Below, piece after piece: positions 1,559 to 23,775 of a DNA stretch of 23,775 bases (the stretch's first letter is position 1; each line of letters opens with the position of its first letter). The position numbers and the translations under genes are program-made. The notes below the pieces were generated by a model. It did not search any database. It was not told where the DNA came from and saw only the letters and a list, made by a program, of their open reading frames with translations. Source of the stretch: a virus; IMG/VR virus record IMGVR_UViG_3300022074_000381, positions 1-23,775 of that record, one strand, 5' to 3'.

Positions 1559-2803
1559 ATGAATCATGTGGATACTACCCAAACAATTAATCATCTCTCA
1601 CTCTGCACAGGTTATGAGGGAATCGGACAAGGAATCAGAAGAGTTCTGCCAACTCTGCGAGAAATCGCTTATGTGGAGATCGAAGCCTTCGCAGTTGCGA
1701 ACTTGGTTGACAAGATGGAAAAGGAAAGACTTCATCCATGCCCTATTTACACGAACCTTAAAACCTTCCCATACGAAGAGTTTTGTGGAAAAGTTGATGT
1801 CATGTCATTTGGATTCCCATGCCAACCTTTTTCAAGTGCTGGCAAGAAGCGAGGTGTGGAAGATGAAAGACATCTATTCCCCTACCTTGCTGAAGGAATC
1901 AGAGTCATGCAACCTCGAATTGTTCTCGCAGAAAATGTACTTGGAATACTCAGTTGCAAAACCGCAGAGGGAGAACCAGTTCTCAAATATGTCGGAAGGA
2001 CATTGGAACAAATGGGTTACTCAGTTGAAATCGGAATATTCTCAGCGAGTGAAGTTGGCTTGCCGCACCAAAGAAAAAGAGTCTTCATCTGTGGCATTTC
2101 CAACACCGAGATCGAGCGACTCAGAGGGTGGAAGAGTGGAGACGATTGTGACCAAGGATGGATTCAAGAGTCTTCGCAAGAAAAGCAATCAAATGTTTGG
2201 AGCGAAGCTCAGAGATGCAGTCGAGACAATGCACGAGAATCAAACACAATGGAAAACACCAACAGCAACACAAGTACAACGAACCAAGGAAGGGATGGAG
2301 AAGAGACTCGAAGAGAGAGCCAAGACCAACCGAGGGTACAACGAGGGGTGCTTGGAGGAACAAGTAGTGATGAGGGAACAGAAGAATTGGTCCACACCGA
2401 GAGCGAGTGCGACAGATTCGACAAGACCGAATCGCAAGGGAGGGATACCTTTAGCACAACAAGCGAAGGAGTCATGGGCTACTCCGACTGCGAGGGACTT
2501 CAAGGACAGTCCGAACGACAAAACGGGGAGGGATTATACTTTAGGCAAACAAGTCAATGGATGGTCGCCCAATCTCCAAGCAGACCCAACCATGAACAGT
2601 ATCAATGGGAAGCCCCACGAGTCATTACAAAAGGGTTATCTGAATCCGAATTGGGTGGAGCAACTGATGGACTTACCACAAGGGTGGACTCAATGCTCAA
2701 TCGAACCGATCGACTCAGGCTACTTGGAAATGGGGTCGTCCCAGCAGTAGCTGCTAAAGCCTTCGCAACTTTAACATCTAAACTATTGAGTGAACAAATA
2801 TGA
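1559..2803 (+). CDS. DNA C5-cytosine methyltransferase (Dcm-like), 414 aa
   Basis: Transfers a methyl group from S-adenosylmethionine to C5 of cytosine, probably shielding phage DNA from host restriction. Start ATG 1559 follows the exonuclease stop closely. Conserved blocks: motif I at residues 13-23 (LSLCTGYEGIG), motif IV with catalytic Cys88 (GFPCQPFSSAG), motif VI ENV at 125-127, motif VIII QRKRVF at 171-176, and motif X at 389-397 (LGNGVVPAV). Between VIII and X, residues about 185-355 are low-complexity, rich in Ser, Thr, Glu, Arg and Gln, and contain no ordinary target-recognition domain or motif IX. Sequence resembling those lies in the +1 frame of the same DNA (separate entry). The region is richer in G+C than its neighbours (33 of 60 bases at 2101-2160), consistent with acquisition by transfer. 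Confidence 0.88.
   Translation: MNHVDTTQTINHLSLCTGYEGIGQGIRRVLPTLREIAYVEIEAFAVANLVDKMEKERLHPCPIYTNLKTFPYEEFCGKVDVMSFGFPCQPFSSAGKKRGVEDERHLFPYLAEGIRVMQPRIVLAENVLGILSCKTAEGEPVLKYVGRTLEQMGYSVEIGIFSASEVGLPHQRKRVFICGISNTEIERLRGWKSGDDCDQGWIQESSQEKQSNVWSEAQRCSRDNARESNTMENTNSNTSTTNQGRDGEETRRESQDQPRVQRGVLGGTSSDEGTEELVHTESECDRFDKTESQGRDTFSTTSEGVMGYSDCEGLQGQSERQNGEGLYFRQTSQWMVAQSPSRPNHEQYQWEAPRVITKGLSESELGGATDGLTTRVDSMLNRTDRLRLLGNGVVPAVAAKAFATLTSKLLSEQI
2091..2750 (+). other. Alternate-frame (+1) methyltransferase target-recognition and motif IX region
   Basis: The frame with codons starting at multiples of three is open from an ATG at 1566 to a TAG at 2748-2750, inside the methyltransferase gene. From 2091 on it reads like the C-terminal region of a large class of phage and bacterial Dcm-type enzymes. 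It has repeated W/F-x-TP-x-A units (AFPTPRSSD near 2094, QWKTPTATQ at 2247, NWSTPRASATD at 2385, SWATPTARDFKD at 2472) and then LNPNWVEQLMDLPQGWT at 2640-2690, the motif IX-like block of that class. Motif X is missing from this frame and lies in the main frame at 2699. Possible explanations are ribosomal frameshifting, overprinted coding, an ancestral frameshift tolerated by both frames, or two sequencing indels. Which is correct cannot be settled here. Confidence 0.6.
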
Positions 2804-3050
2804 AATCAAATATAAACACTACGACATGCCCAAAGAATATGTGGGCAAGACTACTAAATGGGCGAGGGATGAGAAGCAAGCGCTATCTTTCTTGTGTACT
2901 AGCAAGCCTACTAAGGATGGCTATTGCTCTACGAAAAAAGGTGCGAGACTTCAAATCCTATCTGTTAAATGTATATACCCGCAAACAAAATTAAAAAGTT
3001 CAGAGATGAACACAAGCCAAGAGTCTGCCCAATTCTCCTTAGAGAGTTAG
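2790..3050 (+). CDS. Hypothetical protein, 86 aa
   Basis: GTG-initiated frame overlapping the methyltransferase end by 14 bases; an internal ATG at 2826 is an alternative start. The translation (YEIKYKHYDMPKEYVG, then ARDEKQALSFL, then a KKGARLQILSV strand) resembles the small one-strand/helix/two-strand phage proteins that convert a reading of the form 'x-W/Y-V-G-x-A-x-x-x-x-A' into a compact fold. The last 27 codons overlap the next gene. A competing 64-residue frame at 2800-2994 lacks this protein-like character. Function unknown. Confidence 0.6.
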   Translation: MNKYEIKYKHYDMPKEYVGKTTKWARDEKQALSFLCTSKPTKDGYCSTKKGARLQILSVKCIYPQTKLKSSEMNTSQESAQFSLES

Positions 3051-3475
3051 CAAACCCTTGTGTTGACCACGATCATCGCCATGGAGAAATCCGTGGTGTG
3101 ATTGATGGCAATGCTAATAATCTTATTGGTGTCATTGAAAGAAAGTATTACTCTTTCTGTAGTGGTGACCCAAAAGATTTGCCTGATGTACTACGAAGAA
3201 TAGCAGACTATTTAGAAAAGCCTCGGTCCGGGCATCTACATCCAGTTGGATTAAACCAACTTATTTCTAAGTTCAAGGGGTGTAGTAAGGATCAACAAGA
3301 AAAACTTATGGGACAATTTTATTTTTCTAAAAAAGATAAAATAAAGTCTTGTAAAAATATTAAAGAAAGAATTAAATACTACCGCACATTACTAAAAACT
3401 TTTTATGAAACTAAAACTATGCAAAATATCGAGCGAGTTGAAAGCTCCCAAAACTCAATTCAACAAGTTCGGTAA
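2969..3475 (+). CDS. Recombination endonuclease VII-like (His-Me finger) nuclease, 168 aa
   Basis: Likely resolves branched DNA such as Holliday junctions or cuts during packaging and recombination. The signature CVDHDHRHGEIRGVI at residues 31-45 followed by N48, N50 and N51 matches the Asp-His-x-His ... Asn core of T4 endonuclease VII relatives. C20 in RVCPIL recalls the start of the T4 zinc site, but the partner cysteines are absent (IDGNAN occupies the place of the usual CxxCN), as in several phage variants. A basic C-terminal region from about residue 85 (KKDKIKSCKNIKERIKYY) may bind DNA. It overlaps the gene before by 82 bases and the ERF gene after by 71 bases in other frames, which is unusually long. 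Confidence 0.75.
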   Translation: MYIPANKIKKFRDEHKPRVCPILLRELANPCVDHDHRHGEIRGVIDGNANNLIGVIERKYYSFCSGDPKDLPDVLRRIADYLEKPRSGHLHPVGLNQLISKFKGCSKDQQEKLMGQFYFSKKDKIKSCKNIKERIKYYRTLLKTFYETKTMQNIERVESSQNSIQQVR

Positions 3476-20576: not shown

Positions 20577-23500
20577 TTAGTAAATATTGTAATGATTGTT
20601 TATTTCGTCTCTTATTGAATCTATTTCAGAAATGTTGTCTCCGCTATAAATATAACATTCTTTGCAAAGACCAGATGTTGACCTTGAAGAAGTTGCTGGA
20701 TAAGCTCCAAATAAAGAAAGTGCTGTAGTTGAAGATGTATCTAAGTCAGCATCTATGTCACTAGAAGCCGCTGATTCACCATTAACTTTTACAGTAAATG
20801 TTCTGTTATCTGTTGTGCCAGAAAAGACAACATCTGTATTTGTTTTGTCATTTGATGAATCAGTACCAAAATTTTTAGTAACTCTCTTAACTGAACCACC
20901 TACTTCGTTTGCCAAAGACCATTGTTGAGTACCACTTGTTTTTATATTTAAAGCAACACCACCACCTTGATAAGTTCCAGCACCTCGTCCACCACCCCAA
21001 AGCACCGATGGGTTTCCAGTTGATGGACCATCAAAAATCTTACCAACATAAATAATACCTAGTTTAGTTCCACCATTTGCCCAGTCATTAGTTCCAAAAT
21101 CAACTGAACTACCATCAGATGTTATTTGTAAATTTTGCATAGTAGAACTACTTGATGCTACATCTGCACCAACTCCATTTGCAAATCCTCCATTTTTAAC
21201 AATGTATGGTTGCTCAGTAGCAGTTGCTTGAATCATATCTCTACCATTACTACTTTGGTCGTACCAAGTTTCTACAAAACCATTACGAGCTATGCGAGAT
21301 GCCTTAATATCTTTAACACTAATAGTTATATCAGCATCAAGACCTAAAGTTTTAAACATTAAGTTGTCTTCTGTTCCACTTGTACTATTTCTAGTTAAAG
21401 TTACACTATGAAAACCAACAGCTGAAATATCTGCATCATCAGTTAGTGCAGTATAATTATCGTTTATTGATAGTTTTAATCTAAAATCTGAATCGGAAGG
21501 AGCTTCTTCAACAAATAGAGATACTTGTACTGTATCACCTTGAGCTAATCCGATGAAATCACTACCCGAATCAAGCATATATCTAGTGAATACATTTTCA
21601 TCATCATCTGGATTATAACTGTATTTAATACTGTTCTTAGAATTAGTGGTTACAGTTTGGCTTGTGGTGGCACTTTCAGTTGTTCCATCAGATTTGGTTA
21701 TTGTAGATGTTACAGTTCCGGGAGATACTACACTTGTAAAATTCAACTCATCATTGTACAAACTATAATAGTTATTGTTGTTGGACTCAATCTTAAAACG
21801 ATTGGCTGTTTGGTCTGATGTAAATAAAATAAGTTCTTTAATAGTTCCATCAAAGTAATTAGCACTAAAGTGCGAGCCAATCGTATTAGTACCAGAACTT
21901 GGATTACTACTAGAAGAACTAACTGATGCACTTTCAAGTGCATTGCCAAAAGATTTAGCAGTTGATGAACCAGCTATTGATGTAAATAAAAATCCATTTT
22001 GAAACTGACTAACTGTGCTTGTAGTATTATTAGCAGCAGCCGCATATCCAAATAATACATTGGAATCATTTCTTCCTTGATAAAAAATATTTGAATCACC
22101 ACTTGCACCTTGAGACCAACAAATTTGAGTTGCTCCAGTTGTTCCATCTGACTTAGCAAACATAAAGGCACTAAAATTATTAATGTTATCACAAATGTCA
22201 CCTAATAATAAATTATCATTACTACCATCAAAGTCTATACCATCAGCAAGCAATGCTCCACTCTCTGCAATCTTTGGTTGGTTAGCAGCAGTCTCTTGAA
22301 CTGCATTGTTTGACCCAGTTTGGTCGTACCAAGTGTGGACAAAGGCTTGGTGAGTATGAGATACTACTTGAAAGTCGCTAATTGTGTATGAACCAAAATG
22401 ACTGTCTGCAAACATAAGATGTGTTCCATCAGCAGTAGCTGTCATTGTATCCGTATATGTTCCATTAGCCGTAACTATAGTACCACCAGAGGTTTTACTT
22501 GTTACACTATTAACACTTAATACTCCTCTAAGTTGTGGACTTAAACTGCCAGATGTGTTATTAAAGTTACTTACTGTATACTTTAATACAATTACATCAC
22601 CAGTAGCAAAAGAATAAGGAAATCCAGCTGAACCAATTCCTCCTCCAGAACTATTGTCAGCAGAAAACCCAGTACTAGAAACATTAGTTAAAGTGTAATG
22701 GTTAAAAGAGCCAGTACCATTAACTGCTGTTCCTAATGTTAGGACTTCATTTAAAAATCCATTAAGGTCAGTAGCAGTTGTTCTTCCACTTTCGCCACCT
22801 TGTTCTGTTTCATTCTCTACAAGAGAACTATTACTTATTTTATCATCTGAATCAAAAGCTACATTTACCTCAATGTTATCTGAGCTTCTACGAATACGAA
22901 GAGGAAACAATGGTGTAGCACTTACAGATATAGCTGAAATATAATATATGTCTCCATCGTCAGCAGTTGCTTCAACAAATGGTAAAACATTTGGTTCTGC
23001 CTCATTGGTAATAGTTATAAATTCTGCTCCGAAAGCATCAGTAAATTTATCAGTTCCACCATACTGAGAACCATAACTTAAAGTAACCTCTGTCCAAGTT
23101 CCTCCTACTATTTGAACCCCTATGTTTGTTCTTATTCTAGCACCTCTAGAACCAGCATTTGCTCCAGCATCGTGAGAACCAATCTGCCAAAACTTCCCAA
23201 TAATAGGATGACCACTAGGAACATAGTAAGTAAATGTTACTTGACCATTTCTTGTTAATTGATAATTATCCCTAACTAATTGTAATTGTGGACATACAGT
23301 AGCATTATTTTCTATTTTAAGAACATTATCCTTAGGTGTACTACCATCTGATATTCCATTAATATTACCAGTAACAGTAACAGCACTATTAGCAGCTGGA
23401 CTTTGAATACCATCTACACCACTACTATAATCACCAGTGTAAACATTAGAATTAGATGATACTTTACGAAGACTATAAGCAGCTGCGGCTGTTGCTACAT

Positions 23501-23775
23501 CTGCTGGTAGTGTATTCTCTAGTTTACCATTTACCCAATCTTCTAATGCACCGCTTTGTATTTGGCTTGCTGAAAAATCTTCTTCTGGGTCTGATGTTTC
23601 TCCTACATCTCTACGAACTTTTACAACTCTACCATTCATCGCACCAACATCTCGTAATGAGTAAGCAGCTGCAGAGCCACCGAATCTACGAGATATTCCT
23701 AGATCAGTATATGCATCAGCATAGCCATGCTTAATATCCCAAGCACCACCTAGATTACCCTTGAGAGTATTCTCT
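20577..23775 (-). CDS. Large tail fibre/spike protein with two LamG/arabinofuranosidase-like modules (5' end outside window)
   Basis: The frame stays open from the window's right edge; an internal ATG at 23639 is not the start, since the upstream codons continue a recognisable phage-fibre segment (ISRRFGGSAAAYSLRDVGAM). At least 1065 residues are present. The N-terminal part has a repeated element (ENTLKGN...AAAYSLRDV and ENTLPAD...AAAYSLRKV). Two modules then each carry FV-H/E-TWYDQ-T/S and a lectin-like beta fold, the first preceded by LRIRRSSDNIEVNVAF, resembling concanavalin-type arabinofuranosidase or LamG domains. The protein is Ser/Thr/Asn-rich throughout. It likely binds or trims host surface glycan; catalytic residues cannot be assigned. 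Confidence 0.8.
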   Translation of the reverse strand, partial: ENTLKGNLGGAWDIKHGYADAYTDLGISRRFGGSAAAYSLRDVGAMNGRVVKVRRDVGETSDPEEDFSASQIQSGALEDWVNGKLENTLPADVATAAAAYSLRKVSSNSNVYTGDYSSGVDGIQSPAANSAVTVTGNINGISDGSTPKDNVLKIENNATVCPQLQLVRDNYQLTRNGQVTFTYYVPSGHPIIGKFWQIGSHDAGANAGSRGARIRTNIGVQIVGGTWTEVTLSYGSQYGGTDKFTDAFGAEFITITNEAEPNVLPFVEATADDGDIYYISAISVSATPLFPLRIRRSSDNIEVNVAFDSDDKISNSSLVENETEQGGESGRTTATDLNGFLNEVLTLGTAVNGTGSFNHYTLTNVSSTGFSADNSSGGGIGSAGFPYSFATGDVIVLKYTVSNFNNTSGSLSPQLRGVLSVNSVTSKTSGGTIVTANGTYTDTMTATADGTHLMFADSHFGSYTISDFQVVSHTHQAFVHTWYDQTGSNNAVQETAANQPKIAESGALLADGIDFDGSNDNLLLGDICDNINNFSAFMFAKSDGTTGATQICWSQGASGDSNIFYQGRNDSNVLFGYAAAANNTTSTVSQFQNGFLFTSIAGSSTAKSFGNALESASVSSSSSNPSSGTNTIGSHFSANYFDGTIKELILFTSDQTANRFKIESNNNNYYSLYNDELNFTSVVSPGTVTSTITKSDGTTESATTSQTVTTNSKNSIKYSYNPDDDENVFTRYMLDSGSDFIGLAQGDTVQVSLFVEEAPSDSDFRLKLSINDNYTALTDDADISAVGFHSVTLTRNSTSGTEDNLMFKTLGLDADITISVKDIKASRIARNGFVETWYDQSSNGRDMIQATATEQPYIVKNGGFANGVGADVASSSSTMQNLQITSDGSSVDFGTNDWANGGTKLGIIYVGKIFDGPSTGNPSVLWGGGRGAGTYQGGGVALNIKTSGTQQWSLANEVGGSVKRVTKNFGTDSSNDKTNTDVVFSGTTDNRTFTVKVNGESAASSDIDADLDTSSTTALSLFGAYPATSSRSTSGLCKECYIYSGDNISEIDSIRDEINNHYNIY

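Follow-up and report, generated by a model that had tools for sequence, protein, structure and literature searches.

Two genes that overlap along almost their whole length in a 23,775-nucleotide stretch of viral DNA (IMG/VR record IMGVR_UViG_3300022074_000381; hereafter, the window) very probably (about 0.85) encode one heteromeric C5-cytosine DNA methyltransferase, in which alpha would be the catalytic and beta the specificity subunit. Based on profile searches (PF00145: 2.9e-34; phrog_363: 1.3e-46; TIGR00675: 4e-30) and motif content, alpha (main frame, 414 aa) is a C5-cytosine methyltransferase with motifs I, IV (PCQ), VI (ENV), VIII, and X all on one gene. The TRD and motif IX are absent from the alpha chain between motifs VIII and X, and are found in the +1 frame instead. 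This frame encodes beta (394 aa), which is nested in alpha and matches phrog_1008 (2e-18), as do all of its about 39 aligned relatives; the same profile searches returned no Pfam or NCBIfam model for beta. With the +1 frame open already 7 bases past the main start, the overlap covers nearly the whole main gene and extends beyond the recognition region (Table 1).

Table 1 Features of the overlapping alpha and beta genes in the window.
Feature	Position	Strand	Content	Support or remark
Alpha gene	1559..2803	+	Motifs I-VIII and X; low-complexity stretch from VIII to X	PF00145, phrog_363, TIGR00675
Beta gene	1566..2750	+	W-x-TP repeats and motif IX	phrog_1008, tblastn to C75C1, 0 stops
Dual start site ATGAATCATGTG	1559..1570	+	Alpha ATG 1559, beta ATG 1566, possible second alpha start GTG 1568	
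Alpha motif I (HLSLCTGYEGIG)	1592..1627	+		
Alpha motif IV, catalytic Cys (GFPCQPFS)	1811..1834	+		
Alpha motif VI (ENV)	1931..1939	+		
Alpha motif VIII (HQRKRVF)	2066..2086	+		
Beta W/F-x-TP repeat region	2097..2501	+		Module gain/loss, beta codon-position signature
Beta repeat FPTPRSSD	2097-2120	+		
Beta repeat WKTPTAT	2250-2270	+		
Beta repeat WSTPRASATD	2388-2417	+		
Beta repeat WATPTARDF	2475-2501	+		
Main-frame string SNTEIERLR	2099-2125			
Main-frame string MENTNSN	2249-2269			
Main-frame string VHTESECDR	2390-2416			
Main-frame string YSDCEGLQG	2480-2506			
Beta motif IX (LNPNWVEQLMDLPQGWT)	2640..2690	+		Profile match to in-frame motif IX of single-frame enzymes
Main-frame string SESELGGATDGLTTRVD	2639-2689	+		Opposite beta motif IX
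Alpha motif X (RLRLLGNGVVPAVAAKAF)	2711..2764	+		In beta frame in L007

A preliminary description of the window had reported both frames as open, and both were recovered at these positions together with every amino acid string that it quoted. Its estimate that the open +1 frame exceeds chance was borne out by permutation: beta contains no stops in 394 codons, whereas 2000 synonymous-codon shuffles within alpha that kept both the protein and the codon usage gave 9.9 on average and at least 3 each. Five relatives gave the same outcome as the window, and the +2 frame of the window contains 18 stops. At the far end of the window, a long minus-strand ORF (20577-23775), still open at the window end, contains repeated segments of the kind FVETWYDQ... 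and looks tail-associated, with repeated domains.

Relatives were collected with beta and with alpha as query. In phage C75C1, beta is kept at 45% (tblastn, residues 1-375) and alpha at 48%. A search of IMG/VR by beta alignment returned 289 relatives. Among the best 80 of these, beta always lies in the alpha+1 frame wherever the motifs could be located, and both frames are open over their full length in at least 55 loci, across which beta ranges from about 300 to about 510 aa with gains and losses of whole W-x-TP modules. A survey with the alpha of an enteric-type relative as its sole query covered 80 viral and 80 bacterial loci, 134 of which were analyzable. From motif IV to motif IX, the +1 frame is stop-free in 132 of the 134 loci (7.1 expected), i.e., in 74/74 viral and 58/60 genomic loci, and the +2 frame is open in none of them. 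Phage loci with both frames include those of Escherichia, Rhodobacter, Klebsiella, Aeromonas, Komagataeibacter, cyanobacterial, and Paenibacillus phages, and two E. coli chromosomes likewise carry both. In the enteric group, stops in the +1 frame are confined to the part of the gene that precedes a point about 41 codons ahead of motif IV; the 6000 codons that follow have none, and 104 of 150 sequences have an ATG at -42 codons from motif IV. As a negative control, 16 single-frame relatives, in which the repeats and motif IX lie within the main ORF, have no open +1 frame (0/16; mean of 5.75 stops).

Public annotations split this pair of genes, giving beta in some loci (L091, L093, L097, and L098) and alpha in others (L092, L094, L095, L096, L099, and L100), under the names methyltransferase or hypothetical protein. 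The suggestion that the two kinds of amino acid string mark separate families, as frame variants of one DNA segment, is apt as a description of how annotators have divided alpha and beta, but the two are products of the same gene and not alternative families. Judged from sequence comparison, many phage and bacterial 'cytosine methyltransferase' genes appear to contain the same second half, unannotated.

Both frames are conserved and under selection. The preliminary description had proposed a check for suppressed synonymous rates, and this suppression was found: in a comparison of the window with six relatives (rows 'SSB' and 'orf4078', which were read out of frame, were left out), divergence at 4-fold sites of alpha is 0.11 in the TRD part and 0.24 in motifs I-VIII, compared to 0.46-0.59 in three neighboring genes. 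Changes in motifs I-VIII that are synonymous for alpha created no beta stops (0/1269), although 46.6 were expected. Using 40 marine loci, we found that alpha third positions are the most variable in motifs I-VIII, and that in the TRD part beta third positions are more variable (0.53) than the others (0.35). Variation in the TRD part therefore follows the beta codons, implying that the alpha linker is hardly constrained there beyond staying open. Opposite motifs I-VIII, marine beta sequences show no residue-level preference beyond stop avoidance, which counts against the two-subunit reading.

With regard to expression, both chains would be initiated at one ribosome-binding site, with start codons that overlap or are adjacent. 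ATGTG is present in 44 of 50 distinct marine start regions, with beta starting at its ATG and alpha at its GTG, two bases further along. In 30 of the marine starts alpha has no nearby start other than this GTG, and all of these (30/30) have an SD match of at least 4/6. For the remaining marine starts, an alpha ATG lies 7, 10, or 13 bases upstream. In the window an upstream ATG is present; there is no clear SD before the start site, which counts against this scheme. Two initiations at one ribosome-binding site would be the simplest mechanism.

Programmed frameshifting, an option raised in the preliminary description, would produce a single polypeptide by translating motifs I-VIII in the main frame, shifting by +1 near position 2090 into the TRD and motif IX, and shifting back for motif X. 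It likewise accounts for the TRD and motif IX in the +1 frame, but needs two opposite shifts. Whereas the second frame of a frameshift gene has no start of its own and is entered by the shift, the +1 frame described here has its own conserved 5' start and is open from that ATG across all of motifs I-VIII, where stop-creating changes have been purged; a stop-free beta opposite these motifs is not needed for a shift near 2090. The sharp stop boundary of the enteric group, which lies just upstream of the ATG shared at about -42 codons from motif IV, also argues against frameshifting.

Two alternative layouts bear on this question. In layout B (nine loci: L027, L039, L043, L047, L055, L070-L072, and L086), alpha terminates immediately past motif VIII and its frame carries many stops throughout the TRD, with beta intact. 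Motif X is conserved in the alpha frame past the beta stop, where it adjoins in-frame GTG and TTG or TTA, and the alpha frame is closed between; this arrangement favors frameshifting and counts against the two-subunit reading, but the stop after motif VIII is explained by the overlapping beta codons. In layout C (L007:2456-4001, the same as L033), the alpha frame ends about 130 codons past motif VIII, and the beta frame holds motif X. This beta-X fusion indicates that a joined TRD-IX-X chain is viable, again in favor of frameshifting, which we nevertheless regard as very unlikely on the evidence of the beta start and of the stop-free frame opposite motifs I-VIII. Together, layouts B and C show that the alpha linker is dispensable and beta is not, and that motif X can lie on either chain. 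Homologues with only one conserved frame, which the preliminary description had expected to speak against overprinting, do exist in two lineages; in these, it is the main frame that is interrupted over the TRD and the +1 frame that stays open. In a deep-sea phage (L010:2530-3458), alpha is fragmented near motif I and beta (2779-3366) is intact, a case of either sequencing indel or decay.

Comparison with enzymes encoded in one ORF suggests what beta does. In profile comparisons with actinobacteriophage methyltransferases encoded in one ORF, enteric beta aligns to the segment that spans the repeats and motif IX (probability 94%, E 1e-7), and marine beta to motif IX (81%, E 1e-5), so that beta is homologous to the TRD-IX part of the single-frame enzymes. 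A single chain of these enzymes contains motifs I-VIII, then in some of them PTP repeats, and then motifs IX and X. A structural model of one single-frame enzyme matches the M.HhaI fold and is confident in the catalytic domain and the C-terminal part, but does not resolve the repeat region. AlphaFold modeling of the window beta alone (with 39 relatives) gave no confident fold (pLDDT 51.8, pTM 0.20), which counts against the proposed role. In C5-methyltransferases, as is generally known, motif IX organizes the TRD and the small domain contacts the target (PMC3404938). Relative to positions 2097-2640 of the window, L001, L003, L006, L007, and L008 have gained, lost, or reordered W-x-TP modules (30-60 residues) as blocks, always in multiples of three, and therefore both frames survive. 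Serial TRDs of multispecific Bacillus phage methyltransferases resemble such block-wise module shuffling. The W-x-TP repeat region of beta is probably the target recognition region that picks the DNA target. The relatives, the codon statistics, and the single-frame homologues thus agree with the earlier proposal of conserved overprinting, with the TRD and motif IX in the +1 frame and motifs I-VIII and X in the main frame. Among the actinobacteriophages, the one-ORF enzyme represented by ShiLan gp70 (L102) is split in two within the catalytic domain in Mycobacterium phage Jarcob (gp69-gp70, L101).

In the proposed heteromeric enzyme, alpha would provide the cofactor-binding and catalytic motifs I-VIII plus the C-terminal motif X, and beta would provide the recognition repeats and motif IX, completing the enzyme in trans. 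The alpha segment from motif VIII to motif X would be mostly a linker, with a sequence that is a by-product of beta. From these sequence data, we infer that both proteins are made and associate, and that the complex would methylate DNA. It is very unlikely that alpha is instead a complete methyltransferase and beta a separate overprinted protein, for instance one that regulates or inhibits either the enzyme or restriction. Alpha alone has a good PF00145 score end to end (11-399), and the lack of both a Pfam or NCBIfam model and a confident fold for beta is compatible with such a protein. However, motif IX is missing from alpha, whose linker evolves like non-coding sequence, and beta shares homology with the TRD-IX segment of methyltransferases encoded in one ORF, is kept where alpha is truncated after motif VIII, and is able to carry motif X (L007).

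That the second open frame is a functionless by-product of base composition and W-x-TP repetition is hardly conceivable: some codon biases do lengthen +1 frames (13/134 permuted expectations are nonzero, in GC-rich genomes), but permutations that keep codon usage and protein still yield stops, the suppressed synonymous divergence and the beta codon-position pattern contradict it, and the +1 frame is closed in high-GC single-frame relatives. An old accidental frameshift with both readings tolerated, as the preliminary description had also considered, is not supported. A sequencing indel or artefact is ruled out, including the indels near 2090 and 2690 that had been named as a refuting finding, because about 200 independent loci share the layout.

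Beyond the window, there is likely a very large unrecognized class of phage and bacterial C5-methyltransferases with two fully overlapping genes, one dual start, and a modular, rapidly reshuffled specificity subunit in the +1 frame, most database entries for which would represent one half. If so, many annotations of 'complete' cytosine methyltransferases describe one half of the enzyme, in Escherichia, Salmonella, Klebsiella, Rhodobacter, and cyanobacterial phages as well as bacterial chromosomes. Recoding the annotated ORF for cloning would then abolish the second half. Comparison of beta repeats could then assign targets to orphan phage methyltransferases, and the two genes would be among the longest and most widespread same-strand overlaps of two selected proteins. 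Layouts A, B, and C and the single-frame enzymes allow testing of how overlaps arise and resolve. New here are how broadly the layout occurs, the placement of the recognition region in beta, the alternative layouts, and the dual start.

Our search of the literature on overlapping or frame-shifted cytosine methyltransferases found only mentions of M.EcoHK31I and M.AquI, and none of this class. Beta matches PHROG 1008, which is annotated as DNA methyltransferase; its annotation is silent on the overlap. Like the beta frame of L007, the profile includes motif X, and PHROG 1008 therefore probably mixes beta-only and beta-X proteins. ShiLan gp70, CheeseTouch gp88, and their IMG/VR relatives share the catalytic domain and motifs IX and X with the window family, as well as PTP repeats in some cases, but the actinobacteriophage single-frame enzymes differ in having all motifs in one ORF and a closed +1 frame. 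M.AquI carries motifs I-VIII on one chain and IX-X on the other (PMC3404938). The window differs from M.AquI in that motif X is on alpha and the genes overlap along about their whole length and are not in tandem. In L007, by contrast, motifs IX and X lie together on the second chain, with the same distribution as in M.AquI (I-VIII / IX-X), and L007 thus appears to be an M.AquI-like motif distribution inside the same family.

Two-polypeptide C5-methyltransferases also include M.EaeI. For M.EcoHK31I, Lee, Kam and Shaw (1995) reportedly found the small polypeptide to be encoded in an alternative frame inside the large gene, with both polypeptides needed for activity; overlap in different frames is thus seen in the window and reportedly also in M.EcoHK31I. 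The descriptions of M.EcoHK31I found mention neither the ATGTG start nor layouts B and C, nor a wide distribution; the window family reaches far beyond the small number of enzymes described so far. The window beta spans nearly all of alpha and carries the W-x-TP repeats, whereas the predicted TRD of M.EcoHK31I was placed in the larger subunit (PMC3404938), which counts against assigning the recognition region to beta. Of the two M.EcoHK31I polypeptides, the larger carries motifs I-VIII and X and the smaller carries motif IX (PMC3404938), the same motif distribution as in the window. By published motif distribution, the window thus fits best as a variant of the M.EcoHK31I kind.
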